Origin: Campylobacteraceae bacterium
Lineage (GTDB): Bacteria; Campylobacterota; Campylobacteria; Campylobacterales; Campylobacteraceae
Assembly: GCA_031263195.1 (NCBI GenBank)
Contig: JAISGD010000022.1
Coordinates: 62,001-126,000, forward strand
Direction: 5' to 3'
Length of the DNA stretch: 64,000 nucleotides
Part shown: piece after piece, positions 1,314-24,878 of the stretch
Layout: the number at the start of each line of letters is the position of its first letter
How positions within the stretch are numbered: the stretch's first letter is position 1
Notes under the pieces: generated by a model
What the model saw: the letters and a program-made list of their open reading frames with translations, nothing else
What the model was told of the DNA's origin: nothing
Databases searched by the model: none
Position numbers and translations under genes: made by a program

Positions 1314-2087
1314 CTAAGTTACAAAATACAAAAGTATCATAATTATTGCATTTCCACACTTTGACGAATTTTTGTTCTCTAGATAAAACTTGCTTTTTGC
1401 TAACTTTTCCGTGTTCTTATCTATATGCTGCGTAACTATAGTTTTATTTGCAGCCGCTTTTATAGACAGAGTACTGTAATTAAACCCTTCCGCTATGGCT
1501 GCTTTATCGCAAGTATCATAAGGGAAAAATACTTTTCTGTACGCTTTATCTGTCAATTTATTGCCGTTTTTATCATAAAGCTTTTTTTTTTCGTCTGCAA
1601 AATTTGCTCTTCTATCGACTATTTTGCCTTCTTTAAGCGTTAGAAGTTCAGAATTAATAAAATCCCCGTTTCTGTTTTGCCAAAATCCAATCAAAACTTC
1701 ACCAAGCTTATAGTGATATATTTTATTAGTATTACTGTTATTAAAATGACATTTATATCGCTGTTCCTCTTTTAATCTTCTAATAGCGGATATTTCATTC
1801 TCTTCCGTTGTAGTATTAAGCATTTTGCAGTATTTGTTTTTCATTACTTGCATGTAGATAACTTGCTGGGTTGATTTTTTATAGTTATCAATGCATGCAT
1901 TGTTATTTTTGCAAATGTAGGCGATATATTGTTTATCTGCTATCCCGCTTCCCGATGAAGCGTAATTACTATGATAAATCTTATAAACGCCGTTTAATTG
2001 TTCTGATTTTAAAGGAATGAATAAATCTTTGGTAGATGCACAGCTTACAAAGTAAAATAGTGCAAAAATCAAAATCAACCCCTTCAT
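1314..2087 (-). CDS. Lipoprotein, truncated paralogue of the 2108-3658 gene
   Basis: ATG at 2087 is chosen over the upstream ATG (2102) because AGGGG lies just before it and the product then begins as a lipoprotein signal peptide (MKGLILIF..., lipobox FVSC). The body matches the first ~240 residues of the neighbour: shared NGVYKIYH near the N-terminus, then LYDKNGNKL and KFYLxNKNSSK in the same order. Immediately after NSSK the similarity stops and a hydrophobic 14-residue tail follows, where the neighbour continues into about 270 more residues. A 10-T run (1582-1591, Lys codons) lies in the coding region. Function unknown; it may be a partial duplicate still expressed or a pseudogene. Confidence 0.7.
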   Translation of the reverse strand: MKGLILIFALFYFVSCASTKDLFIPLKSEQLNGVYKIYHSNYASSGSGIADKQYIAYICKNNNACIDNYKKSTQQVIYMQVMKNKYCKMLNTTTEENEISAIRRLKEEQRYKCHFNNSNTNKIYHYKLGEVLIGFWQNRNGDFINSELLTLKEGKIVDRRANFADEKKKLYDKNGNKLTDKAYRKVFFPYDTCDKAAIAEGFNYSTLSIKAAANKTIVTQHIDKNTEKLAKSKFYLENKNSSKCGNAIIMILLYFVT

Positions 2088-2107
2088 ACAACCCCTAAAC
2101 ATATTTG

Positions 2108-3658
2108 TTAATTAGTGACACACTCTATAATATTGCAAGAGTTTAGCGTTATTTTATCGCAGATGGGAGGAATTATCTCTTTGGCGTTGATATCCATAAC
2201 AACTGTTTTACCTTCAAGTGTATAGGAAAATATACTGTTGTCAAGTGGTTTTAAATTTTTATATGATTTATCAAAAAGCTTATTCCAATTTTTGTCGTAG
2301 AGAATGCCTTCATTGTTGAATGACGCAATGTAGAAATTGTCATAAGCCGTAATATTATCCGCTTTTAAATCCTGCAAAATATTTTTCGAATAATCAAATA
2401 CAACCGCTCTATCTTTTGCATACGCGATAAAAACATTGTCTCTAAAATCAACTTTAGACAAATCTTTCATGACGGGCTTTAAATTTGCATCCAATAATCC
2501 TCTTTTATATATCCCATTCCCGTCTGCGTAAACGATAAATCCTCTGTATGTATTTTCAAAATCATATTTGCTTTGCAAATCCGTCACTATATTGCCGTCA
2601 AAGTCCGCTATGCCTGTTTTTTTATCCTTAAAAAATACAATCTTATCATATTTTGTCATGCTTGATTCGTAGCTTTGCTTTGCCCGATCGGCTTTGAACA
2701 GGACTTTTTTATTGTCAAAATCATACAAAAATGTTTCCAATTCGCTCGTATACGGTTTAATAGCTCTTACGATAAGACGATGATCGTTTATCTTTGCAGC
2801 CCACATTAAATCTATATCGTCAAATATATCTGTGCCATCTTTATCAAATAAGCGGTAGACTTTGATTTTACTTTTATGCTTTCCGGTACCAATAAATTTT
2901 TCACCATACTCCATCATATATCCGAATGGAGCAAAAGCTTTAATCTTGGAAGAGTTTTTGTTGTCCAAATAAAATTTTGTTTGAAGTAGTTTTTCTACTT
3001 CTTTATCCGTTGCATTAACAGTTGGAACTTTTTGGGCTGCGGCTATTGGTAAAATCTCGTATTTAAGCCCATCAACAGCCAATACTTTGCCGCATGTTTT
3101 GGGATAAAAATAGATATTTTGATGTGCTTTGTCTAATAATTTATTGCCGTTTTTATCATAAAGTGCGGTAGCTTTTGTGCTCTCTATCAATTTTCTATTT
3201 GCAACTTTCCCGTTTTGAAGCGTTAAAAACTCCGAATTGATAAAATCGCCGTTTTTGTCTCTTAAAAAGAATAAAAAAGTACCGCCTCTAATATGAGTTA
3301 GCATATCATAAACAAAATGACAGCTTATCGTTTTTTGCCTCTCCAATCTTGCAATTTCCGCCTCTTCATCATCTTCTATCGTACTGTCGAGGATTTTGCA
3401 ATCATTGCCATCCATCATACGTATATATGAAATTGCGCGGGGTGTGTCTTTGTACATTTGCTTACAAGTGTTATTTTCACACCATGCCTCTAAAAGGGCG
3501 TTTAGCGTTTTTTCATCATATTTAAAGTAATTTTGATGATAAATTTTATAAACTCCGTTTGTCTGCTCCGCTTTTATGGGAGTTTTGGGCTGTCCGTAAC
3601 TACCGCATCCAGATAACAAAAATGCTACCGCAATAAAAATTGCCATATTTATTTTCAA
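2108..3658 (-). CDS. Lipoprotein with WG/beta-propeller-like repeats
   Basis: A 516-residue protein with signal peptide and lipobox LSGC (Cys18). The N-terminal ~240 residues are the same domain as in the downstream gene at 1314-2087. The C-terminal half carries repeated ~35-45-residue units of the form 'ffkdkktGiaDfdGni.tdl', 'IYKRGLLDANLKPVMKDL', 'GILYDKNWNKLFDK', resembling WG (KWG) repeats that fold as beta-strand bundles. Transcribed just before its truncated relative with a 20-bp gap. Function unknown; a surface- or periplasm-exposed binding role is plausible. Confidence 0.7.
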   Translation of the reverse strand: MKINMAIFIAVAFLLSGCGSYGQPKTPIKAEQTNGVYKIYHQNYFKYDEKTLNALLEAWCENNTCKQMYKDTPRAISYIRMMDGNDCKILDSTIEDDEEAEIARLERQKTISCHFVYDMLTHIRGGTFLFFLRDKNGDFINSEFLTLQNGKVANRKLIESTKATALYDKNGNKLLDKAHQNIYFYPKTCGKVLAVDGLKYEILPIAAAQKVPTVNATDKEVEKLLQTKFYLDNKNSSKIKAFAPFGYMMEYGEKFIGTGKHKSKIKVYRLFDKDGTDIFDDIDLMWAAKINDHRLIVRAIKPYTSELETFLYDFDNKKVLFKADRAKQSYESSMTKYDKIVFFKDKKTGIADFDGNIVTDLQSKYDFENTYRGFIVYADGNGIYKRGLLDANLKPVMKDLSKVDFRDNVFIAYAKDRAVVFDYSKNILQDLKADNITAYDNFYIASFNNEGILYDKNWNKLFDKSYKNLKPLDNSIFSYTLEGKTVVMDINAKEIIPPICDKITLNSCNIIECVTN

Positions 3659-3683
3659 TATACAATATCCTTCTAGACTGATT

Positions 3684-4991
3684 TTATTCTACTCTTGTAC
3701 TTAATATTTTATTGATACGGTTGCCGTTTACTTCTAAAACTTTAAATTCAAACGGACCGTTTTTTACGATATCACCAACTAAAGGTGGGCGTCCCAATTC
3801 GTTAAAAACCATTCCGCCAAGAGTTAAAACTTCTTCACTGTCTTCAAGTTCAAAATCCAATATCTCGCACACGCTTTCTATATCAATCATGCCGTCAAAC
3901 TCATAAGTATTGTCGTCAATTTTGATAAAATCTTCACTTTTTGTATCATGCTCATCGGATATATCACCCATTATCTCTTCTAAAATATCTTCCATCGTCA
4001 AAAGTCCGGCTGTGCCGCCGAATTCATCTATAACAAGAGCTGTATGAATCTGCTCTTTGTTCATTCGCGACAATATATCTGAAATCGGCATATTTTCGGG
4101 TACAAAGATAATTTTTCTAGTCAATTTGGATAAATCTTTAATGGGACTTTCCGCAAAAACATTCTCTAATAAATCTCTTAAATGTATCATCCCCAAAGGG
4201 TTATCTTTACCATCATCGCAGTAAGGATATCTTGTATGTTTTGTCTCCAGAACGGTTTTTATATTCTCTTCGTACGAGTCTTCCGCATAAAGGCAGACTA
4301 TATCTTTCCGCGGAGTCATCACCTCTTTTGCTACCGTATCGGAAAAATCAACGGCATTTTTGATTATCTCACCCTCTACCGAATCTATAAATCCCGCGTT
4401 TAAACTCTCATTGACGATTATCTTAAGCTCCTCTTCGGAGTGCCCTTGATCATGCTCTCTTGCAGGATTTATACCGATTCGCTTTAGAAAAAACGCCGCC
4501 AAGACATCAAAAAGTTTGATGAACGGATAAAAGATTACCCAAAATAACTGTAAAGGTTTGGCTATAAGCAAGGAAGCTTTTTCGGATTTGGCTATGGCAA
4601 TGGATTTTGGGACAAGTTCACCCATAACCACATGCACTAAAGTTATTAAAGTAAACGCTATAATAAAACTTACCGTATGCACAAGTGCCTGATTTTCAGG
4701 AAAAATTTTGAAAATAGGAGCTTCTATAAGTTTTCCGACTGCAGGTTCCCCTATCCAACCAAGCGCCAAAGACGACAACGTAATACCAAGTTGCGTAGCG
4801 CTTAGATATGTATCGAGAGAATTTGACATTTTAAAAGCAAGTTTTGCATTGTCGTGTCCATTCTTTACCAACTCCTCAAGTCTTGTGCGCCTGACTTTGA
4901 CAATAGCAAACTCCGATAAAACAAAAAAACCGTTAAGAACAACAAGAAATACAGCGATAATCAACATTAAAACCGAGTTAGGTTCGGGCAA
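3684..4991 (-). CDS. CorC/HlyC-family membrane protein (CNNM domain, paired CBS)
   Basis: A 435-residue protein. An N-terminal CNNM/DUF21 domain with about four membrane helices (residues 1-190, including NGFFVLSEFAIVKVRR and ATQLGITLSSLALGWIGEPA) is followed by two CBS motifs (EVMTPRKDIVCL; ALVIDEFGGTAGLLTMEDILEEI) and a C-terminal CorC_HlyC transporter-associated domain (ILTLGGMV-type sequence). The family is linked to Mg2+ or other divalent cation transport, with CBS domains sensing nucleotides; older 'hemolysin' labels are not functional evidence. Complete length and all domains present. Stands alone between lipoproteins and the symporter gene. Confidence 0.85.
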   Translation of the reverse strand: MPEPNSVLMLIIAVFLVVLNGFFVLSEFAIVKVRRTRLEELVKNGHDNAKLAFKMSNSLDTYLSATQLGITLSSLALGWIGEPAVGKLIEAPIFKIFPENQALVHTVSFIIAFTLITLVHVVMGELVPKSIAIAKSEKASLLIAKPLQLFWVIFYPFIKLFDVLAAFFLKRIGINPAREHDQGHSEEELKIIVNESLNAGFIDSVEGEIIKNAVDFSDTVAKEVMTPRKDIVCLYAEDSYEENIKTVLETKHTRYPYCDDGKDNPLGMIHLRDLLENVFAESPIKDLSKLTRKIIFVPENMPISDILSRMNKEQIHTALVIDEFGGTAGLLTMEDILEEIMGDISDEHDTKSEDFIKIDDNTYEFDGMIDIESVCEILDFELEDSEEVLTLGGMVFNELGRPPLVGDIVKNGPFEFKVLEVNGNRINKILSTRVE

Positions 4992-5143
4992 GACAAATCC
5001 TTTGTAAAAGTTAGAAAATTAGAAAAGTTGTATATTAGCATATTTTTGTACAGATTTTATTATAAAACGGTAAAAAGACATGCAATGAGCTTTTTAAAAT
5101 CATATACCGCGTTTTTTCATTATATTCATGGTAACTGTTTTGG

Positions 5144-6511
5144 TTATTCATTCGAATTTTTAAAATACTCTTTTGCCATTTTAAATACTACAGGACTTAA
5201 GAGCAGCAAAGCTATTAAATTTGGTATAGCCATCAAAGCATTGAACAAATCCGACAAAGCCCATACTACTTTAAGTTCGGCTAACGCACCTATCGGCACA
5301 GCCAAAGTGAATATTATCCTAAATACAGCCGCGGCTTTATGTCCGAAAAGATATATGGCGCACCTTTCACCATAGACGCACCAGCCTAAAATTGTGGAGA
5401 AAGCAAACAGCGTCAAACTTATCGTTACAAACCAAGAGCCGAAATTACCGTGCGTGATAGAATTAAACGCCAACGTTGTCAAAGTCGCTGCATTATTATA
5501 ATCACCGTTTACCCACTCGCCGCTAACTAAAATAATAAACGCCGATATAGAACAGACTATGATAGTATCTAAAAATGGATCTACCATACCAAGAAGTCCT
5601 TGCTTTACAGGGTTTTTCACTATCGCGGCAGCATGGGCTATCGGCGCGCTGCCAAGTCCTGCTTCATTTGAAAAAAGTCCGCGCGCTACGCCATATCGTA
5701 TCGCCATAGCTACAGTTGAACCCGCAAATCCACCTACGGCAGCATGTCCATTAAATGCACTGATAAAAATGAGATTGAAAGCAGCCGGAATTTTGTCAAT
5801 GTGCATAATGAGAATAACACCGCCGCAAATAACATAAAACAGAGCCATTATCGGTACAAGCACACCCGCGACGGAACCTATGCGCTTAACGCCGCTTATC
5901 ATCACCGCGCCGCCAAACATTAATAGTATCGTCGCTATAATGGGAGGAGTTAGTAAACCACCTGAAAATTCGACTATATTACCCGTTATGGAGTTGGTTT
6001 GAACCATATTTCCTATACCAAAAGATGCTATCATGCCAAAAATGGCGAAAAGTGTAGCAAGCCATTTCCAATTTGCACCAAGACCATTCTTGATATAATA
6101 CATAGGACCACCTACAAAACTACCGTTTGGAGTTGTTTCGCGATATTTTACCGCTAAAGTTGCTTCGCAAAATTTAGTCGCCATGCCAAAAAGTGCGGTT
6201 ACCCACATCCAAAATATCGCTCCAGGTCCTCCCCACATAATAGCAGTCGCTACTCCTACTATATTACCCGTACCGACAGTTGCCGCTAGAGATGTCATCA
6301 AGGCTCTAAATGGCGATATTTCACCTTCATGTTCGGGATCATGTTTGCGCCCTTTCCACATAGCCGCCAATGCATGAGGAAGTTTTATAAAAGGCATAAA
6401 TTTCAAACCTATCGTTAAAAATATACCAACACCTAAAAGCAACGGTATTAAAAGATATGGCCCCGTAACAAAATTATAAATATTATCCAACAAGATGCCG
6501 ATAGATTCCAT
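5144..6511 (-). CDS. Alanine/glycine:cation symporter (AGCS family)
   Basis: A 455-residue, strongly hydrophobic protein with about 11 membrane segments. AGCS signatures are visible: ATVGTGNIVGVATAI near residue 80, the GGPGAIFWMWVTALFGM stretch, and GLGSAPIAHAAA in the second half. The family imports alanine, glycine or related small amino acids with Na+ or H+ into the cytoplasm. Length is normal. No partner gene is adjacent; the following gene on the other strand starts about 150 bp away. The precise substrate cannot be read from sequence. Confidence 0.9.
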   Translation of the reverse strand: MESIGILLDNIYNFVTGPYLLIPLLLGVGIFLTIGLKFMPFIKLPHALAAMWKGRKHDPEHEGEISPFRALMTSLAATVGTGNIVGVATAIMWGGPGAIFWMWVTALFGMATKFCEATLAVKYRETTPNGSFVGGPMYYIKNGLGANWKWLATLFAIFGMIASFGIGNMVQTNSITGNIVEFSGGLLTPPIIATILLMFGGAVMISGVKRIGSVAGVLVPIMALFYVICGGVILIMHIDKIPAAFNLIFISAFNGHAAVGGFAGSTVAMAIRYGVARGLFSNEAGLGSAPIAHAAAIVKNPVKQGLLGMVDPFLDTIIVCSISAFIILVSGEWVNGDYNNAATLTTLAFNSITHGNFGSWFVTISLTLFAFSTILGWCVYGERCAIYLFGHKAAAVFRIIFTLAVPIGALAELKVVWALSDLFNALMAIPNLIALLLLSPVVFKMAKEYFKNSNE

Positions 6512-6661
6512 TTTATACCTTTTGAGAAAAATAATAGCATATTGTAGCGTAAAGCAAGAGTGAAGACAAAAAATCGATTTTTAAGTAATTGCAAATTTTT
6601 GTAGCGGTTTGGCAATAATTTTAATGCAAAATTGTGAAATGAAAATTTTGAGGAGTAAGCT

Positions 6662-8492
6662 ATGATAAATATCAAAACGGTAATAGCAGCTAACTGTCTA
6701 TTGTTTAGTATGATCGCATTTGCAGATACGATATATCCTATAGACAGAGCATTTATACTTGAAGGCGGTAGATTTGATTTTAAAGTTGAATTTGACAATA
6801 AGCTCAAAGAGAATGATTATAAAATTATGATAAACGGCAAAAATTACCAAGATGTATTTAATAAAAAAGGAGAGTTTATAGCTAATGAAGATGCTCTAGG
6901 AGCATCATCTTTGGTAGTGAAAGATGTATTTATAAATAAGGCGGGGAGTTATACCGTCCAAGTTACCAGAAAAGATAAAACAAGCGAAGTTAATTGGAAC
7001 GTTTACGCGCCAACCTCAACAACTAAAGCTAAAAATGTGATACTGTTTGTCGGTGACGGACTTTCCGTAGCGCACCGCACGGGTGCCAGAATTCTATCAA
7101 AAGGGATTAACGAAGGCAAAGCCAACGGATATCTAAATACGGACGATTTCCCACATATGGCGTTCATCGGCACTTCCGGTACAGACTCTATAGCTACAGA
7201 CAGCGCGAACTCCATGAGTGCATATATGACCGGACACAAATCGGGCGTAAACGCTATGGGCGTTTACGTGAGCAGAGCGAAGGATTCGTTAAATCATCCG
7301 AAACAGGAAACTTTGGGCGAGTTGATTCGTCGCACATCAGACAAGTCTTTCGGCATAGTAAGTGACGCGGAACTTGAGGATGCCACGCCTGCCGCTGTTG
7401 TCGCTCATACAAGAAGAAGAGCGGATAAAGATAAAATAGTCGATATGTTTTACAATGTCAAGCCCGATGTTATGCTTGGCGGCGGTTCGGCTTATTTTTT
7501 ACCAAAATCAGTACCTGGTTCTAAGCGTAAAGACGATATTGACTATATAGCAAAATTCAAGCAAGACGGATATGTTTTGGCAACAGATGCCACAACGCTA
7601 CAAGAGATGAAGAGTAAAAGCGATAAACTCCTGGGTCTGTTTCATCTTAGCAATATGGACGGGGTACTGGATAGAAAATTTTTGAAAAATGACGTTACAA
7701 AAAAATTCCCGAATCAACCCGATTTGACTGAAATGACTTCAGCTGCTTTAGAGGTATTGTCTAAAAACGAAAACGGATTTTTCTTGATGGTTGAAGGGCG
7801 CGCTTATAGACAAAGCCTCTCATCCGTTAGATTGGGATAGAGCGTTGTATGATACTATAATGTTCGATAAATGTGTCGGCATTGCTAAAGAGTTTGCCAA
7901 AACCCACCCCGATACGCTGATAATAGTAACGGGGGATCACACGCACGGTATCTCTATCATAGGAACGATTGACGATGATAAAAAGGGTGAAATGCGTGAA
8001 AAAGTCGGGGTTTACGCTGAAGCAGGATTTCCAAATTATCAAGATCAAGATAAAGACGGATATCCTGATACACCTGACGTTTCAAAAAGATTGGCTGTTT
8101 TTGCAAACAATTTTCCTGATTATTATGAAACCTTCAGACCAAAACTTGACGCACAATTCGTACCTGCCGTTCAAAATGAGAAAGGCGCATACATAGCAAA
8201 TGAAGCGTATAAAAATGTCAAAGGAGCTGTGCCTAGAATCGGCAATATTCCTAAAAACACCGATACTGGCGTATACTCTGTTGATGATATGATCGTGCAA
8301 GCATATGGTCCTGGCAGCGACACGATAAGAGGCTATATGGACAATACTCAGCTTTTTAGAGTTATCGTTGATGCGATGGCACTTGGAAAGGTTAAAAATA
8401 AGTTCTTTAAAAAAAGGGTCTTTTGTAAAGCCTGTTTTAATTTTATTGCTATTGAGCATACACGGTGGTACGCAAGAGAGACTTGGTTTTGA
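6662..8492 (+). pseudogene. Alkaline phosphatase (PhoA type), frameshifted
   Basis: The first frame (6662-7840) gives a signal peptide (cleavage near AFA-DT), the metal-site motif ILFVGDGLSVAHR (usually GDGMG) and the nucleophile region TDSANSMSAYMTGHKSG. It leaves frame at the GGG run 7796-7798, where EGRAYRQS replaces the expected EGALIDKASH. The conserved remainder, with IVTGDHTHG (metal-binding His) and GSDTIRGYMDNT, continues in the +1 frame from 7791. Removing one G restores a single ~580-residue enzyme. The second frame has no natural stop after DAMALGKVK and overruns the next gene to 8492. Periplasmic phosphate-monoester hydrolysis is the family role. Sequencing error or true inactivation cannot be separated here. 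Confidence 0.8.
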
Positions 8493-8841
8493 CGAATTAT
8501 ATGAAAATACGGGGGTATTGGGACTTAGTTTCTCACAAAAGGTTAAATCGCTTTCGGGCAAAAAAGTTATTATAGATGTATTTATGGCACCGCCTTTAAA
8601 AGCTGAGGCTAACTTTTTCGTACTTACAAAAGCACCTATGGCTTTGTGTCCTTTTTGTTCGTCGGATACGGATTGGTCAATGGATATATTAGTAATTTAT
8701 CTCAAAAAACGCCAAATCTTTGTCCAGCACAACGCTATTATTCAAGTAAAAGGGATATTAGAGTACGGCTCATGGACAGATAATAAAAGTGGTTTTGTAA
8801 GTTTATTGCGCTTGAGGGATGCGATATTTGAGACAAAATGA
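8368..8841 (+). CDS. Small exported protein of ABC-exporter cassette (CPFC motif), start uncertain
   Basis: Only part of this frame is likely translated: the conserved protein appears to start near 8416, where FVKPVLILLLLSIHGG forms a signal peptide but no ATG/GTG/TTG lies at the expected place in frame. The mature part reads GLSFSQKVKSLSGKKVIIDVFMAPPLK...PFCSSD...LEYGSWTDNKSGFVSLLRL, a ~120-residue domain resembling DUF3299-type OB-fold-like periplasmic proteins; this family placement is tentative. It overlaps the next gene's start by 4 bp (ATGA), so translation is coupled to the ABC ATPase. Its missing start codon suggests a lesion. Likely works with the adjacent exporter. Confidence 0.55.
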   Translation: MMRWHLERLKISSLKKGSFVKPVLILLLLSIHGGTQERLGFDELYENTGVLGLSFSQKVKSLSGKKVIIDVFMAPPLKAEANFFVLTKAPMALCPFCSSDTDWSMDILVIYLKKRQIFVQHNAIIQVKGILEYGSWTDNKSGFVSLLRLRDAIFETK

Positions 8842-9509
8842 TTACTTTAAAAGATGTAAAAATAAATTTTGGCAACTTTAAAAAACCAACACTTGATATA
8901 CCGTTTTTGCAAATAGGAAATAATGTCAAACTTGCCGTTACGGGTATATCCGGCAGCGGCAAAACAACACTTATAAATATTTTATGCGGTTTGGAAAACA
9001 TAGATAGCGGTTCTATATTGTGGGATAATACCGCGTTACATTCGCTTAATCAAATGCAAAAAGACAGATTCAGAGGTGAAAATGTAGGGCTTATTATGCA
9101 AGATTTTCATCTTTATAACGGATTGGGTGTGCTGCAAAACGTTTTGCTACCCTCAAAACTGCGCTATTGTAAAATACCTGAGATAATAGCAAAAAGAGCG
9201 CTGTATTTATTGGAAAGGCTTAATATCCACCAATATTTGCAAAATATTGATACGCTCTCACGCGGTGAAAAACAGCGTGTAGCAATAGCAAGAGCCTTGG
9301 TAAACGCGCCAAAAATAATAATGGCTGACGAACCGACAGCCAGCCTTGATAAAGAGAATGGCAAAGAAGCTGTTAACCTGCTTATCTCTTTGGCAGCTGA
9401 GTTTAAAGCCGCACTTATATGCACTACTCATGATAGAGCTTTAATTGATAAAATGAGTTACTGTTTGGAACTTGAAAAAGGTAAAAAAGTGGAGGCATCT
9501 TTTTTGTGA
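8838..9509 (+). CDS. ABC transporter ATP-binding protein, LolD/MacB type
   Basis: 223 residues with the complete nucleotide-binding domain: Walker A GISGSGKTT (~residue 35), Q-loop LIMQDFHLYNGL, signature LSRGEKQRVAIARAL (~residue 138), Walker B IIMADEPTASLD and H-loop TTHD. The best fit is the LolD/FtsE/MacB group that drives extraction or export rather than import. The start overlaps the preceding gene by 4 bp; the stop overlaps the GTG of the permease frame (GTGA). The ATPase is intact although its partner genes on both sides carry lesions. Confidence 0.9.
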   Translation: MITLKDVKINFGNFKKPTLDIPFLQIGNNVKLAVTGISGSGKTTLINILCGLENIDSGSILWDNTALHSLNQMQKDRFRGENVGLIMQDFHLYNGLGVLQNVLLPSKLRYCKIPEIIAKRALYLLERLNIHQYLQNIDTLSRGEKQRVAIARALVNAPKIIMADEPTASLDKENGKEAVNLLISLAAEFKAALICTTHDRALIDKMSYCLELEKGKKVEASFL

Positions 9510-10693
9510 CAGGGATTATTTGGAGCGATTTTAAAAGAATGTGAGCAGGCAGCTTAATGATTATCCTGCTTATTGCCTCTGTTAGCGGATTTGGACTGTT
9601 TATCACTTTGGAAGAGCGCTCTTTACGTGAGGGAAGCGCAAAAGCAGCACAAAGATTTGATTTAATTGTAGGTGCAGCAGGTAGCGAGACTCAACTTGTA
9701 CTCTCTATAGTTTATCTGCAAAAATCACCTTTGCCTCTGCTGGATGGAAAATATTTTCACGAAATATTGAAGAATAACCTCACAGATTGGGCTGCGCCGA
9801 TAGCTCTTGGGGATTATTATAGAGAATTTTCTATCATTGGCACAACGGAAGCTTTAGTAACGGATGACAATCATCTGAAAATTACAAACGGAAGACTATT
9901 TGAAGAACCGTATGAGGCTGTCGCGGGAACCGGTACCGGACTATCGGTGGGTGATATATTTACTCCTCTGCACGGCGAAGGACATAATGCTCACAGTGAA
10001 GTAAAATATAAAGTTGTAGGTATAGCGCCGTTTTATGAAAACGCATGGGATAAGGCTATTTTTGTCCCGATAGAGAGCGTATGGCACATGCATGGTTTGG
10101 AGGAGTATGACGATGAAAAATATCAGCATAAAGAGCATTACCGCAACCACACTGTACCGCCTATATCTGCCGTTATCGTAAAGCCGAAAACAATCTCCGC
10201 TGCTTACGAATTGCGGAGTATATATAAAAAAGATTTGACACAAGCTGTTTTTCCCGCCGAAATTTTAACCAAATTATACGCGATACTCGGAGATGTGAGT
10301 AAAATACTATCTGATATAGCTTTTGCGAGCGGAGTTTTGGGTGCGATTGTTATTGTCGCCGTTTTGATACTCTATCTTAAGTTACATAGAAGGCAAATCG
10401 CATCTTTAAGAGCTTTCGGTGCAAATGCCAATCATATTTTTATGATGATATGGCTTGGTTTTACAGCACTAATGTGCGTAGGTTACATGGTTGGCACGAC
10501 AGTAGCATTTTTCACTGCAAAATTTATCGCCAATAAGTTATCCGCCGAGCAAGGATTCAAACTGACCGTATGGCTTGAATGGGGCGATATTGGTGCGATG
10601 GCAATCTCCTTAGTCGTCTTATCCGCATTCTTACTAATACCATGTGCACTAATTTATAGATACTCTGCAGCTTGGTGTCTGAAAAACTATTAA
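9506..10693 (+). pseudogene. FtsX/MacB-type ABC permease with in-frame TGA near the start
   Basis: GTG at 9506 overlaps the ATPase stop and opens the frame VTGIIWSDFKRM, which hits TGA at 9542-9544 and continues in the same frame as AGSLMIILLIASVSGFGLF. The remainder (ATG 9557, 378 residues) contains a first membrane helix, a ~240-residue periplasmic MacB_PCD-like domain (AAQRFDLIVGAAGSETQLVL) and three C-terminal helices of the FtsX fold. The stop removes the cytoplasmic N-terminal segment. Re-initiation at ATG 9557 would still give all membrane helices, so partial function is possible. A TGG to TGA change would explain it; sequencing error is the alternative. Confidence 0.7.
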
Positions 10694-18009: not shown

Positions 18010-18660
18010 ATATTCAAAAATAAAAAATTAAATTGAGCAAAATAACTCCTTTAGACATACCGGCTTTTTTAAAGTTAGCATACCGTAAAAAGTTCCTTGA
18101 AATTTGATATTGTAATATCTCTTTATTGTAGATATTCACAGTTATACTATTTATTTTTATAAGACCAAAAATCACCCATTGCCTTGGGTACTGCAATACC
18201 AAGAAAACAGTATGAGCATTTTCACAAAAGAGTGATTGACCTTCTCTCTTTTCTATGCATGCGCAATTTTTCGCCCAAACTACTCTCTGCTGTCTCAAAA
18301 CCCATTTGTGACATCGCCAATAAACCTGCTAATAATATAAAGTTTGCTCCCGCAGCGACGCACCATACAATCAATGATACCTTTTACAAACAATAATATT
18401 TGTTTCATTTGGTTTTTAGTAAGTTGCTCAATCACACTGCGTTTAAGCAAAGTCAATCTTTCATTTTTTAACTATAGCTGTTTAAACCCAAATATAAATT
18501 TTCAAGTTTTAAAAACAGTGCTGCTATCTTTTCCGGCAAAATGATATTTTTTCACCTTCTATAAACAAAACAAATCTTTATATCTATAAAGGTTGCAACT
18601 TCCGTATTTGAGCTTTTTGTCGCAAAACTTACTTTTGCTTTTCTTAAAATCACGAGCAGC
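18010..18660 (-). pseudogene. Decayed gene remnant (membrane-protein-like)
   Basis: In this 830-bp region no intact gene is present, but the minus strand gives protein-like pieces in shifting frames: FATKSSNTEVATFIDIK (~18600), then a hydrophobic AAGANFILLAGLLAMSQ running into MGFETAESSLGEKLRMHRKE (~18360-18240), then FCENAHTVFLVLQYPRQW (~18215-18160). Several stops and at least two frame changes separate them. This looks like an old inactivated gene with a membrane helix. The family is not recognised, and chance similarity in AT-rich DNA is possible. Confidence 0.35.
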
Positions 18661-18755
18661 AATGCGCACTTTCGGCAAAGCTGCATAACTCTTTAAAATG
18701 ATTAAAATACTTATATATCTGAAACACTCTAAACGGACTATGTATATGTTTATTC

Positions 18756-19988
18756 CTAAAATGCACGGGCTAAATCAGAGTCCGGATGATTACCGCAACG
18801 CCTGTAATCATCAAAATCTATTGTAAGAGAGTGATTTTTACGTATCTTCTGAAGAGCAGATGAGAGTCTTACATAATACTCTAATGAAGCGTTTTTTTGC
18901 CCGGCTAAATAGGTGTTTGGACGTGGCACCCAAACCATATTTACAGTACTTACACCGTATGAAGCTAACTCATCTGCCTCTTTCAAAACCGCTTCCAAAG
19001 CCTCGTCTTCACTTCTAAAACCAAACGGTTTGGCAAGCTCCACGCCTGACACTATACCTGTATTTACTCTGCCTTCCCCAAAAATTTCCACAGCATCGAT
19101 AAGGCGCTTTTTCCACTCTTTGTAACCAACCCATTTGGCTTTTCCCGGACACACGATATTAAAGATATTTTCATTTAAAACCTCTATATCCATTGTAAGG
19201 CTTGAGATACCGGTTTCGTTGTAAAGACGCTTTAATTGCTTTGATGTGACTGCGGAACAGATAAGCTGAGACGGGAACTTTTTCGATGAAAAATTCTCTC
19301 CTATGGCGTTTAAAATCTCTATATAGTAGTCTATCTCTTTATCAAACGGTATCTCGCCGTGAAAATTAGAGCCCGATGTCAGGCAAATCGCACTGAATCT
19401 CCCTCTCTCTTTTAACGCTTCCCTGATCGTTTCGGATACATCTTTGGGTTTTATCTTTGTTTGCATCTCTATCTCATTTTTTTGCTGTCTAAGGTTACTG
19501 ACTATATCGCAAAATTTACAACCCATATCATCATTCCAAAAATAACAATATCTGTTTGGTATGAGATAAAGCCTTTGAGGACGGGCACCAACAATATTTT
19601 GCATAAGCACTCCACTTGATGTTCGTTTGTCATAAAAGTCGGGCTTATCCCAATAAAATACCTCCTCAATCTCTCTGCCCTCATCTGTTAAAATAAGCTT
19701 ATCATCTATCAAATCAACTATATACGGGTTATTCTCAAGCGGGGTTGGCGTACTAAGAACGGAGGTGCCGTCACGCAAAACAAAAGCTTCGGGACGCTTT
19801 GTAAGTTTGCCGTCTCTTGTCCCGAACAGATGTGTTCCTCCTAATTGATGGCGTGTTTCATCAACTGCACTAAGAGCGTTTGGCGTATAGTAAACACCGC
19901 GTCTGTGAATATCCGTCTTTAACATAATAAGTTTTGGAAAATCTGGGTATTTTACCGCAACTTCCTCAAAAATCAAACTATCATTCAT
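18756..19988 (-). CDS. Radical SAM protein with CX8CX2C cluster motif
   Basis: Start 19988 (MNDSLIF...) follows AAGGAGG, a near-perfect RBS; the longer frame (20048) runs through that RBS. 410 residues. The Fe-S candidate is CYFWNDDMGCKFC at about residue 143-155: three cysteines spaced CX8CX2C, not the canonical CX3CX2C. Downstream radical-SAM-barrel features include ICLTSGSNFHGE (a GGE-like strand), SLTMDIEVLNE and VNTGIVSGVE. Last gene of the ABC importer operon (138 bp after the permease), so it probably modifies or uses the imported compound. No substrate can be named from sequence. Confidence 0.8.
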   Translation of the reverse strand: MNDSLIFEEVAVKYPDFPKLIMLKTDIHRRGVYYTPNALSAVDETRHQLGGTHLFGTRDGKLTKRPEAFVLRDGTSVLSTPTPLENNPYIVDLIDDKLILTDEGREIEEVFYWDKPDFYDKRTSSGVLMQNIVGARPQRLYLIPNRYCYFWNDDMGCKFCDIVSNLRQQKNEIEMQTKIKPKDVSETIREALKERGRFSAICLTSGSNFHGEIPFDKEIDYYIEILNAIGENFSSKKFPSQLICSAVTSKQLKRLYNETGISSLTMDIEVLNENIFNIVCPGKAKWVGYKEWKKRLIDAVEIFGEGRVNTGIVSGVELAKPFGFRSEDEALEAVLKEADELASYGVSTVNMVWVPRPNTYLAGQKNASLEYYVRLSSALQKIRKNHSLTIDFDDYRRCGNHPDSDLARAF

Positions 19989-20125
19989 TAAATTGCCTCC
20001 TTTTTTGGCAAAGTATAACCAACCATATTTTGCAGTTTTAAAATCCACACTTCACTTAATGTCATTCTATCAAACCAACATTTTATAAGATAACTTACAA
20101 CTTGCGATTATAAAAACTTTGATAT

Positions 20126-21010
20126 TTAAAAGCTTCTCATTCCCCACTTAATCACTGTCCTTTTTTCTATAACTTTAAATATAATATTTTCTACCAATAC
20201 TCCTATAATGATAACGCTCAAAAGCCCGGCAAACACAACATCAATATCGAGTTGATTTTTCTTTTCATATATAAACCATCCTATGCCTCCTCCACCCGAG
20301 CTTACACCAAAAACCAACTCCGCGGCGATAAGCGTTCTCCACGAAAAAGCCCAGCCAACTTTAAGTCCTGTCAATATATTTGCAAACGCACCAGGGATTA
20401 ATATCTTAAATACAAACCTAAGGCCTGTCAATTCATAATTTCTGCCGACCATGCGCAAAGTATTGCTAACACCCATAAAACCGTTGTAGATATTAAGAGC
20501 GATAGGCCAAGTAACAGCGTGTACTATAACGAACATGATGCTCGGGTACCCAAGTCCGAACCACAAAAGCGCCAATGGTAAAAGAGCAATAGCCGGAAGC
20601 GGATTAAACATGGAAGTCAGCACATCCAAAAGGTCTGTACCAATCCGTGTCGTTATAGCCAAAACAGTCAGCGACGAAGCAAGTAAAATACCGCAAATAT
20701 AGGCAAAAAAAAGAATCTTTAAAGAAGTGATAATTTTTTCGGGAAGCTCCCCGCTTAACATAACGCTTATAAAGGCTCTTGCGGTAGAAACAAATGTCGG
20801 AAACATAAGCTCATTATCCAAATATAGAGAGTATACCTGCCAAATAAACGCTAAAGAGACTATGATAAGAAATTTGCGAACAAAGTTGTTATTGAAAAAT
20901 TTCTCCCAAAACGACAACTCTATCCTCGCTTCACTGCTGTTTTTTAAAAGAGCTTCACGCTCATACACTCTTTTCACTCTATCCATCGAAATTATCTTTT
21001 TCGCACCCAT
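20126..21010 (-). CDS. ABC importer permease, SsuC/TauC type
   Basis: 294 residues with six predicted membrane helices after a ~45-residue cytoplasmic start. The cytoplasmic EAA-type loop appears as NYELTGLRFVFKILIPGAFANILTGLKVG (Gly at the conserved site), and AFSWRTLIAAELVFG follows as in nitrate/sulfonate/taurine permeases. Partners are the ATPase (16 bp upstream) and the binding protein. It would form the homodimeric channel in the inner membrane. Confidence 0.88.
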   Translation of the reverse strand: MGAKKIISMDRVKRVYEREALLKNSSEARIELSFWEKFFNNNFVRKFLIIVSLAFIWQVYSLYLDNELMFPTFVSTARAFISVMLSGELPEKIITSLKILFFAYICGILLASSLTVLAITTRIGTDLLDVLTSMFNPLPAIALLPLALLWFGLGYPSIMFVIVHAVTWPIALNIYNGFMGVSNTLRMVGRNYELTGLRFVFKILIPGAFANILTGLKVGWAFSWRTLIAAELVFGVSSGGGGIGWFIYEKKNQLDIDVVFAGLLSVIIIGVLVENIIFKVIEKRTVIKWGMRSF

Positions 21011-21025
21011 TGCTTACTCTTCCTT

Positions 21026-21796
21026 TTATATCACGTAATCCATACGGTTTCTGAAAAGAGTATCGGAAATCCTCTCTTTTAGCATAGCAAATTCAAAACC
21101 AAGAGCCGACAAATCCACATCCAGCTCTTCCACTACTTCTCCAGGATGCGGTGAAAACATTACTATGCGAGTACCTAAAGTAATAGCTTCATCTATGGAG
21201 TGCGTTACAAAAATAAGTGTAAAACGCGTATCTGCCCATAACTCCAAAAGTTCTTCTTGCATTTTTTGGCGCGTTAAAGCGTCAAGTGACGCAAACGGCT
21301 CATCCATCAATATCACTTTTGACTTTAACGCCAAACATCTGGCGATAGCAACTCTTTGTTTCATGCCACCGGAGAGTTCGTGAGGATAAGAGTCCGCAAA
21401 TTTTTGCAAATTGACCTTTTTTAAAAGCTTTTTCGTTTCACTTCGCGCCTCTTCTTTTGTAACATCTCTTGTGGAACGAATAGCAAAAACGATATTTTCA
21501 AGCGCGCTCTTCCAAGGCAGCAGCTGGTCAAACTCTTGAAAAACAAAACTTCTATCTGAGCCGGGCTTTCTTATCTCCCGACCATTTAAGAGAATTGAGC
21601 CTGAAGTTGGTTTGATAAATCCCCCAATAGCTTTTAAAATAGTAGATTTGCCGCAACCGGAGGGTCCTAACAGTATAAGCCGCTCACCTTCGTTGACGCT
21701 AAAATTTATATCATGTGTAGCAGTTACTAAAAAGCCGTTTGTTTTATACTGCAAAGTAAGATTTTTTACCTCTAAAAACTGCTCTTGTTCCATCAT
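21026..21796 (-). CDS. ABC importer ATPase, SsuB/TauB type
   Basis: 256 residues. Walker A LGPSGCGKSTIL (~residue 45), Q-loop FVFQEFDQLLPWKSALENI (the LLPW form typical of nitrate/sulfonate/taurine ATPases), signature LSGGMKQRVAIARCL, Walker B VILMDEPFASLD and H-loop VTHSIDEA. It powers uptake through the permease at 20126. Starts 10 bp after the binding-protein stop. Confidence 0.92.
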   Translation of the reverse strand: MMEQEQFLEVKNLTLQYKTNGFLVTATHDINFSVNEGERLILLGPSGCGKSTILKAIGGFIKPTSGSILLNGREIRKPGSDRSFVFQEFDQLLPWKSALENIVFAIRSTRDVTKEEARSETKKLLKKVNLQKFADSYPHELSGGMKQRVAIARCLALKSKVILMDEPFASLDALTRQKMQEELLELWADTRFTLIFVTHSIDEAITLGTRIVMFSPHPGEVVEELDVDLSALGFEFAMLKERISDTLFRNRMDYVI

Positions 21797-21805
21797 GCCA
21801 AACTT

Positions 21806-22789
21806 TCAGTATACTTTGTCAAAAAACAGCTCTTTCCAGCTTTGAGGCTTTGTCTTAATCGCACCCGTATTGAAAAGAAAATCACTGAAAACTGTAATAT
21901 TCGGCAACGGCTTTGTCTGATATGAGATTTCCGGTTTGTTCAGTATAGCCTCGATAATCTCCAAAGGCTCTTTTGATTTTGAAGCTTGGAGGTAGAGTTT
22001 AGCCGCTTCGTTTTTATTATCCGCTATCCATAAGTCCGCCTCATTCAGAGCATCTATAATGACTTGCGAGAGTTTGGGATTGTTCTTGTAAAACTCCTCT
22101 GTAGTGGAGATGACATTTGTCGTATGTCTGCCGCCAAATACATCGTAAGAGTTGAAAACTTGATGTATATTTGAGTTTTGCTGTTCTATCGTTAAAAACG
22201 GTTCTGGAGCAAGGTGTCCGGTGATTTCGGATTTACCTGAAGTTAAAGCAATAAGCGCATCCGGATGCTTGAGCGTAACCGTCAAATAATCAAATTTGTC
22301 ATAATTTTCCACACCAAACTCTTTTGCAACAGCTATTTGAAATACTAAAGACTGTATGGAGACTTTGACAGCAGGAAGTGCGATTTTGTCTTTATCCGTC
22401 AAATCACGCAATGTTTTTACATTAGGATTTGCGCTATTTAAGACTAAAGGAGATTGGTCAAGCGCAGCTAATGCTCTGATTTTGCCTTTTGTCTTGTCCC
22501 ACAATCTTATAAACGGTGCATTTCCGCCCGAAATAATATCAACGCTTCCCGATAAAAGCGCGTCATTTGCCGTGGCTCCACCGCCAAATGTTATCCACTC
22601 AACTTTTATATCGCCAAGTCCGGCGGTTTTGGCATGCTTGGCGATTAACCCTTTCTTCTCAAGAATGACTAAAGGCAAATATGCCAACCCATACTGCTTT
22701 GATATGCGAAGTTCGCTCTTTTCAGCCGATAGCGTTGTACCGGCAAATAGTATTACAACCAATGCAATAAATAGGGATACTTTTTTCAT
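21806..22789 (-). CDS. ABC importer substrate-binding protein, NMT1/SsuA-like
   Basis: Start 22789 (MKKVSLFIALVV...) preceded by AGGAGG; the upstream frame extension covers the RBS and promoter. 327 residues with a signal peptide cleaved near TLSAEK. The fold is an NMT1/THI5-like or SsuA/TauA-type binding protein: LRISKQYGLAYLPLVILEKKGL, FGGGATANDALLSGSVDI, LTSGKSEITGHLAPEPFL. It captures a small organic ligand in the periplasm, possibly sulfonate-, pyrimidine- or alkane-derived; which one cannot be told. First gene of the operon, under a strong consensus promoter. Confidence 0.88.
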   Translation of the reverse strand: MKKVSLFIALVVILFAGTTLSAEKSELRISKQYGLAYLPLVILEKKGLIAKHAKTAGLGDIKVEWITFGGGATANDALLSGSVDIISGGNAPFIRLWDKTKGKIRALAALDQSPLVLNSANPNVKTLRDLTDKDKIALPAVKVSIQSLVFQIAVAKEFGVENYDKFDYLTVTLKHPDALIALTSGKSEITGHLAPEPFLTIEQQNSNIHQVFNSYDVFGGRHTTNVISTTEEFYKNNPKLSQVIIDALNEADLWIADNKNEAAKLYLQASKSKEPLEIIEAILNKPEISYQTKPLPNITVFSDFLFNTGAIKTKPQSWKELFFDKVY

Positions 22790-22821
22790 AGTAAACCTCC
22801 TTTTTTGTAATTTGTAAACGA

Positions 22822-22850
22822 AATATACCACTTTTTTAAATTTATGTCAA
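22822..22850 (-). promoter_or_regulatory. Sigma-70-type promoter of the ABC/radical SAM operon
   Basis: On the minus strand TTGACA (22850-22845) and TATATT (22827-22822) are separated by exactly 17 bases, 33 bases before the binding-protein ATG. This is the best consensus promoter in the window. Confidence 0.75.
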
Positions 22851-23234: not shown

Positions 23235-23585
<351 letters not shown>

Positions 23586-24878
23586 TTATCTTAAGTTAAA
23601 TGCTCGCTCTCCGTGCTCCGTTTCATCCAATCCTTGAGATTCCGCATCGCTATCGACTCTCGCTCCTTTTGTAATTAAAGACGATATTCCAAACACTATA
23701 GCTGTACCAATAGCCGTATATATTATGGTTACTACGATACCCTCAATTTGAATCAGCACTTGAGACGGATTTCCGTATAAAAGTCCAACGCCGTTTGAAT
23801 TTATAGCGGGATTTGCAAATATCCCGGTAGCAATCGCGCCCCAAATACCGGATATCGCATGTACTCCAAAAACGTCAAGCGAATCGTCGTATTTCAAAGC
23901 TCTTTTGAGATAATTCACAGCGTAAAACGACAAAACTCCAGCTCCTATTCCTATCACAAAAGCTCCTATGGTATCGACAAATCCTGCTGCCGGGGTGATG
24001 GCTACGAGTCCTGCTACTATGCCTGAAGCTATGCCTATGAGCGTAAACTTTTTATATGTGATATATTCTATTATAAGCCACGCAAGAGCAGCCGCAGACG
24101 CCGCTATATTTGTTACCAAAACCGCATTCGCCGCAATCGCGTCAGCCGCGAGTTCGCTTCCGCCGTTAAATCCAAACCAGCCAAACCACAATAAAATCGC
24201 GCCAAGCACGGTAAACGATACGGACGAAGGAAATATAGCTTTGCCAAAATCCGCGCGTTTGCCAAGCAGTAATACTATCACAAGTCCCGCGATACCGGCA
24301 TTAATATGCACAACCGTACCGCCTGCAAAATCAAGCACCCCATCTTTTGCCAACCAACCGTTCTCACTCCAAACCCAGTGAGCTATCGGAGCGTAAACCG
24401 CGATAATCCACAACGCCGAAAAAATAAGCCACGTACTAAATTTCAATCTTTCGATCAACGAACCGCTGATAAGAGCGAGCGTAATTCCCGCAAATGTTAG
24501 TTGAAAAGTCGCGAAAAGAATTTCGGGAATAGTTCCGTGGACTTGGTCTAATCCTATATTTGTCAAAAAGAATCCGTCAAACCCAACTATGCCTCCGCCC
24601 AAATCCGTTCCAAACGCTATGGAAAAGCCGATTATAACCCAAACAAGTCCCGCTACTATGTAACCTCCAACGCTCATAGCGATAGTGTTCAACAAGTTTT
24701 TAGCGCGAGCCATACCACCGTAAAAAAGCGCCAAACCGGCAGGCGTCATAAGCATAACAAGCGTAGTCGCCACTATAATCCACGCCGTATCTCCGGTATT
24801 TAACACAGCTTCATCCTCAGCCGACAATATGGAAGGCAGCGATGACAGCGCCAAAAAATAAAGTAATCTTTTCCTCAT
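23586..24878 (-). CDS. amtB: Ammonium transporter Amt
   Basis: 430 residues: a cleavable signal-like N-terminus (LALSSLPSILSAED), then 11 membrane segments. Conserved Amt landmarks: NTGDTAWIIVATTLVMLMTP, ALFYGGMARAKN, AHWVWSENGWL, DFAGGTVVHINAGIAGL (pore His pair region) and FGVHAISGIWG. It conducts ammonium/ammonia through the inner membrane and is gated by the adjacent PII protein. RBS AAGGAGC upstream. No sigma-54 site was recognised in front. Confidence 0.95.
   Translation of the reverse strand: MRKRLLYFLALSSLPSILSAEDEAVLNTGDTAWIIVATTLVMLMTPAGLALFYGGMARAKNLLNTIAMSVGGYIVAGLVWVIIGFSIAFGTDLGGGIVGFDGFFLTNIGLDQVHGTIPEILFATFQLTFAGITLALISGSLIERLKFSTWLIFSALWIIAVYAPIAHWVWSENGWLAKDGVLDFAGGTVVHINAGIAGLVIVLLLGKRADFGKAIFPSSVSFTVLGAILLWFGWFGFNGGSELAADAIAANAVLVTNIAASAAALAWLIIEYITYKKFTLIGIASGIVAGLVAITPAAGFVDTIGAFVIGIGAGVLSFYAVNYLKRALKYDDSLDVFGVHAISGIWGAIATGIFANPAINSNGVGLLYGNPSQVLIQIEGIVVTIIYTAIGTAIVFGISSLITKGARVDSDAESQGLDETEHGERAFNLR

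Follow-up and report, generated by a model that had tools for sequence, protein, structure and literature searches.

A putative organosulfonate-uptake operon joining an SsuABC/TauABC-type importer to a CX8CX2C radical SAM protein in a Campylobacteraceae bacterium

Within the window (the whole 64,000-nucleotide stretch analysed here), a four-gene operon on the minus strand at 22789-18756 encodes a binding protein, an ATPase, a permease and a radical SAM protein, all four of which were confirmed. Its best explanation, to which we give an even chance, is the uptake of an organosulfonate followed by radical chemistry on the imported compound. The pairing of importer and radical enzyme is not a product of chance. 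Of 38 homologous radical SAM loci from three phyla, 35 have SsuA/TauA-type importer genes no more than 8 kb away; the loci are partly dependent, as many belong to related genomes and some lie on shared contigs. Sulfonate-sulfur acquisition by low-oxygen bacteria is only partly known, and a radical SAM protein and split-barrel protein kept together with sulfonate-type importers provide a compact, testable candidate route.

Operon structure and gene decay

A sequence-only reading of this DNA had described the four genes as standing behind a consensus-type promoter, and both the genes and the promoter were recovered. The features of the operon and its immediate surroundings are:

22822..22850, minus strand: sigma-70-like promoter, TTGACA-17-TATATT with TG before the -10 element, 11/12 matches
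21806..22789, minus strand: periplasmic substrate-binding protein of the NMT1_2 / SsuA family, with a signal-peptide-like N-terminus
21026..21796, minus strand: ABC importer ATPase, TauB/SsuB/NtrD-like by Pfam and NCBIfam models
20126..21010, minus strand: ABC importer permease, SsuC/TauC-like by Pfam and NCBIfam models
19994..20065, minus strand: remnant of a split-barrel gene, about 24 codons (blastx 42% over 24 residues)
18756..19988, minus strand: radical SAM protein, 410 aa, with C148-x8-C157-x2-C160 and invariant C280 and C398 (NF045502, predicted fold)
18104..18747, minus strand: pseudogene of a PLP enzyme (threonine-synthase-like, PRK08197-type), with in-frame stops, a frame change and a large internal deletion

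The promoter (22850..22822) is the top-scoring site of the region and sits 32 bases 5' of the binding-protein start codon; promoter-like sites in the region overall number 15 against 14.2 in shuffles, i.e. there is no excess. The importer genes follow one another at 9-15 bases. Their assignment to the nitrate/sulfonate/taurine/NMT1 type, as originally proposed, stands at the level of Pfam, where the binding protein matches PF13379 (NMT1_2) at 39.7 bits, the ATPase PF00005 (ABC_tran) at 125.6 bits and the permease PF00528 (BPD_transp_1) at 50.3 bits, each above its cut-off. It does not extend to the curated sulfonate families: the NCBIfam SsuA, TauB, SsuC and TauC models all match this importer, every one of them below cut-off (SsuA model TIGR01728, 89.9 against 163.5 bits; TauB, 223 against 357; SsuC, 84 against 347). 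With an NMT1-like binding protein, a BPD permease and an ABC ATPase in one operon, the set nevertheless has the make-up of an SsuABC/TauABC-type importer.

In relatives (e.g. L003 and L009) the genes run in the order binding protein, ATPase, permease, split-barrel protein, radical SAM protein, PLP enzyme, and the window operon is a reduced form of this arrangement in which the split-barrel and PLP genes have decayed. The split-barrel remnant lies in the 137 bases that separate the permease gene from the radical SAM gene, with a score reached by 0 of 1000 shuffles, and a clearer remnant is found at the sister locus L002 (E 7e-5). The PLP pseudogene is recognised by blastx in both its N-terminal (E 5.6e-9) and C-terminal (E 4.8e-7) parts; a 94-aa ORF at window 18014-18298 on the minus strand overlaps it and probably does not represent a separate gene. 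Upstream of the operon, genes for a P-II regulator and an ammonium transporter (Amt) lie at window 23235-24878 on the minus strand, with ORFs of the same length upstream in L001 and none in most relatives.

The same genome carries a second, complete cluster on contig C4 (L091), in which SsuD, a split-barrel protein, a radical SAM protein, an SsuA-type binding protein, a permease and an ATPase are encoded at 1506-6999. The radical SAM paralogue there is 79% identical to the window copy and is accompanied by SsuD (543 bits) and an intact split-barrel gene, whose product could serve both radical SAM proteins in trans. A histidine kinase gene and an amidohydrolase-type gene are also found near this cluster. 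In a 40-sequence tree the window copy groups with L001 (99/97), and the C4 paralogue falls apart from it, in a supported clade shared with other SsuD-linked copies.

The radical SAM protein and its partner

Homologues and a GGAGG ribosome site support the ATG at 19988 as the probable start of the radical SAM gene; a longer ORF, reaching 20048, would start at GTG. The protein passes the NCBIfam model NF045502 'variant_rSAM' (203.6 bits against a cut-off of 125), gives zero matches to Pfam and finds no relative in sequence searches of the PDB. The sequence-only reading had named a match to a characterised radical SAM family as the result that would count against it, and none was found above cut-off: TIGR04043 (MSMEG_0568/NitD) scores 68.6 against 303.7 bits, LipS2 28 against 270 bits, and the match to CofH is a weak 17 bits. 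An AlphaFold model from a 17-sequence alignment (pLDDT 80.8, pTM 0.85) has as its top Foldseek matches in the PDB radical SAM enzymes throughout, namely RlmN, lipoyl synthase (LipA), NosL, PylB, HydG and biotin synthase, at moderate TM-scores of ~0.4 over the query; the predicted fold class, a TIM-barrel-like radical SAM fold, is clear and its details are not. DesII and AprD4, enzymes in which a leaving group is expelled beside the radical, are also among the fold matches.

The CX8CX2C spacing noted earlier is exact (C-YFWNDDMG-C-KF-C), and C148, C157, C160, C280 and C398 are invariant across the 17 sequences of the family alignment. With a wide family profile, C157 and C160 line up with Cys2 and Cys3 of the cluster motif in a BioB-like CX3CX2C protein from this genome (E 3e-4, a single pairwise comparison), from which it follows that the long spacing would reflect an extended loop between the first two cysteines. 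The further idea that this spacing is special to the window protein had to be given up: the first spacing runs from CX8 to CX11 across the family, is CX8 or CX9 in Streptomyces, Agrobacterium and Rhizobium (NitD-type) relatives, and thus marks a wider group rather than the window operon. The family provides a defined set in which to study how a CX8-11CX2C loop would hold a radical SAM cluster.

The gene lost from the window operon appears, from its distribution, to encode the true partner of the radical SAM protein, a 150-aa protein of FMN-split-barrel-like type. Of 397 Campylobacterota genomes, six carry the partner and the very same six carry the radical SAM gene (both searches at E <= 1e-20). 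In a test of 18 genomes from several phyla the partner is present in 17, the exception being the L001 genome, which shows no copy. By sequence the protein falls into no confident family, although eight of 15 members match Pfam PNPOx_N weakly. The PDB matches of its model (pLDDT 88.3) include FMN-binding split-barrel proteins, HupZ and F420-binding split barrels, and the predicted fold is FMN-split-barrel-like (PNPOx-like). At L092 a 176-aa ORF was rejected as the split-barrel protein. It looks GNAT-like by eye, and the radical SAM gene stands between this ORF and the actual split-barrel gene.

Conservation and spread of the gene neighbourhood

A scan of species genomes yielded 27 loci, and neighbours were counted over the 38 homologous radical SAM loci with a reach of 8 kb, sampling Campylobacterota, Spirochaetota and Pseudomonadota. 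The 35 loci with importer genes include L023, where these are on the opposite strand; the exceptions are L022, L024 and L106. The 150-aa protein stands beside the radical SAM gene in 25/38 loci, the threonine-synthase-like PLP enzyme (PRK08197 type, over cut-off in both examples examined) in 15/38 in addition to the remnant in the window, and SsuD in 9/38. Around more distant radical SAM subfamilies, neither the importer set nor the 150-aa protein was found in any of nine loci. The coupling of importer and radical enzyme that the operon had suggested is therefore borne out by the homologue search, with gene order conserved across Campylobacterota and Spirochaetota. It extends to L098 (spirochaete G1016), where the radical SAM protein passes NF045502 at only 35% identity and the genes for a TauB-like ATPase, SsuC-like permease, SsuA-like binding protein, radical SAM protein and 150-aa protein are still contiguous, with neither an SsuD nor a PLP gene within 8 kb. 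Another spirochaete copy, 50% identical, adjoins a binding-protein gene of TauA-like type (243 bits against a cut-off of 304).

The recurring neighbours point, by their sequence families, to organosulfur compounds, and most simply to C2 or C3 sulfonates. This reading draws on SsuA and SsuD matches over or near cut-off, among them SsuD model TIGR03565 over cut-off in L010 and, in L014, a second binding-protein type beside SsuD that passes SsuA (186 bits); on the TauA-like binding protein; and on cystine-type amino acid importers near the radical SAM genes of L018, L019, L026, L096 and L105. It draws also on L009 9234-12464 in a Sulfurospirillum MAG, where the radical SAM gene is followed by genes for the PLP enzyme, a sulfolactate-dehydrogenase-like protein and a PGDH-family 2-hydroxyacid dehydrogenase. 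The last two families are those used for sulfolactate in known pathways, and this stretch is a possible sulfolactate module. Sulfonates and pyrimidines had both been offered as example substrates: the neighbours favour the former, and no thiamine or pyrimidine genes were recognised among those scanned.

The family is rare in every phylum sampled, being found for instance in 6 of 397 Campylobacterota genomes and 1 of 399 in the phylum of Accumulibacter. Its scatter over Campylobacterota, Spirochaetota and Accumulibacter suggests horizontal transfer, a suggestion that is not firm because the tree has several long branches and leaves many of its deep forks open. Many of the MAGs with these loci are, judging by their names, presumably of termite-gut origin. 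More distant radical SAM relatives are present in ~38 of 296 genomes of spirochaetes; the five loci inspected (L099, L100, L101, L107 and L108) encode a form of 430-445 aa with CQYFG...CX2C (CX8CX2C) and have neither importer nor split-barrel neighbours. In a plasmid collection, 370 Klebsiella records match the radical SAM protein weakly by tblastn. At one Accumulibacter locus (L022 7962-11122), a B12-binding radical SAM gene of BchE/HpnJ type comes after the split-barrel and radical SAM genes.

Proposed function and alternatives

We propose that the SsuABC/TauABC-type importer would bring in a C2 or C3 organosulfonate (taurine-, isethionate-, sulfolactate- or cysteate-like), on which the radical SAM protein, ancestrally with its small FMN-split-barrel-like partner, would carry out radical chemistry inside the cell. 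The likeliest chemistry would be abstraction of a hydrogen next to a hydroxyl or amino group and subsequent loss of the sulfonate; alternatively, the radical step might ready the compound for C-S cleavage. Sulfite so released could become a sulfur source through the genome's sulfite reductase, since CysD/CysH-type genes and a sulfite-reductase-type protein are present and sulfite could thus be assimilated. The elements of this proposal are not equally secure. We regard a sulfonate as quite probably the substrate class, and action of the radical SAM protein on the imported compound as likely, if less so; C-S cleavage by the radical SAM enzyme itself seems somewhat unlikely, and a role for the flavin partner as electron donor is a weak suggestion. 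The partner may even be dispensable, given its decay at the window locus and its absence from the L001 genome.

It is worth setting against the sulfonate reading the evidence that fits it poorly. Firstly, the importer scores fall below the SsuABC/TauABC cut-offs. Secondly, at L106 (G1120, 4496-9662) the importer genes that surround the radical SAM and split-barrel pair are of the sugar-type CUT1 class (UgpC/SBP_bac_1), and the two Accumulibacter loci, L022 and L024, have no importer within reach. Lastly, the Amt and P-II genes upstream of the window operon would also fit nitrogen use.

The alternative that survives best, though we consider it unlikely, keeps the sulfonate and moves the cleavage elsewhere: the radical SAM enzyme would dehydrogenate, rearrange or otherwise alter it for SsuD, the PLP enzyme or dehydrogenases, without itself breaking the C-S bond. 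Enzymes of such later steps (SsuD, the PLP enzyme and sulfolactate-dehydrogenase-like proteins) do share its clusters, and an adjacent SsuD that already cleaves C-S bonds when oxygen is present leaves room for the radical enzyme to do something else; the deep relative L098, however, retains only importer, radical SAM protein and split-barrel protein.

FMN or F420 is a common ligand of split-barrel and luciferase-like families, and it is conceivable, if improbable, that the radical SAM protein makes or alters a cofactor such as a flavin or deazaflavin for the split-barrel protein and the luciferase-like SsuD, with the importer a mere neighbour. The strict pairing of radical SAM and split-barrel genes, the F420-binding split barrels among the partner's fold matches and the weak CofH match would agree with such a role, but importer genes accompany the radical SAM gene no less constantly than the partner does, SsuD is mostly absent, and so rare and patchy a distribution misfits a general cofactor.

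Decay of two adjoining genes raises the prospect that the window radical SAM gene is itself a leftover on the same path; we find this very improbable, as strong purifying selection acts on the importer and radical SAM genes, all of them intact (dN/dS 0.02-0.10; 0.02-0.08 for the radical SAM gene against relatives), and C4 holds a second intact copy with its partner gene. Least probable of all is a NitD-like role (Nit1C cluster) in nitrile- or cyanide-linked nitrogen use with a nitrate/cyanate-type importer, for which TIGR04043 as the next best family, the long CX9CX2C spacing there and the upstream Amt and P-II genes might speak, since the TIGR04043 score is so far under its cut-off, sulfonate genes lie nearby instead and the neighbours scanned yielded no recognisable nitrilase or MSMEG_0572/0570 gene.

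Comparison with known systems

A search of the open-access literature returned nothing relevant on CX8CX2C radical SAM proteins or on the window operon, and the closest comparisons are with systems that share one or other of its elements. NF045502 variant_rSAM, which the window protein and that of L098 both pass, is a domain-level model with no assigned function, and the more distant spirochaete relatives that were inspected stand without importer and split-barrel neighbours. The MSMEG_0568/NitD protein of the Nit1C cluster (TIGR04043; PMC1199592) resembles ours in weak sequence similarity and in long spacing, CX9CX2C in a Rhizobium member, whereas it is without the CPGK cysteine and belongs to a nitrilase gene cluster rather than to one with an importer and a split-barrel protein; membership of TIGR04043 was rejected on score. 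The lipoyl synthase LipS2 (PMC9585515) was likewise rejected, its weak similarity falling well short of the family cut-off and its motif being a canonical Cx3Cx2C.

Oxygen-independent sulfonate use offers further parallels. In Rhodobacter capsulatus, the isethionate reductase system has IsrB together with SsuCAB and IsrHDK, with IsrB reported as closest to BciD and working with nitrogenase-like proteins (PMC11423573). There a radical SAM protein and a sulfonate ABC importer, two elements like those of the window operon, are both required if a sulfonate is to be used without oxygen; no nitrogenase-like isrHDK genes were recognised among the neighbour genes scanned around the radical SAM loci, and identity with IsrB was not adopted, IsrB being closest to BciD by its published description. 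The isethionate lyase IslAB / IseGH also performs oxygen-independent radical cleavage of a sulfonate C-S bond (PMC6453916), but as a glycyl-radical enzyme with its activase, whereas the window protein is a radical SAM protein, and the neighbours scanned included no recognisable glycyl-radical gene. There is no sign that the window protein belongs to either system. That a stretched-motif radical SAM enzyme, with or without its flavin-type partner, releases sulfite directly from an imported sulfonate without oxygen is a proposition we consider unlikely; if true, such direct release would constitute a desulfonating class distinct from SsuD/TauD, Xsc, the glycyl-radical lyases and the nitrogenase-like isethionate reductase.
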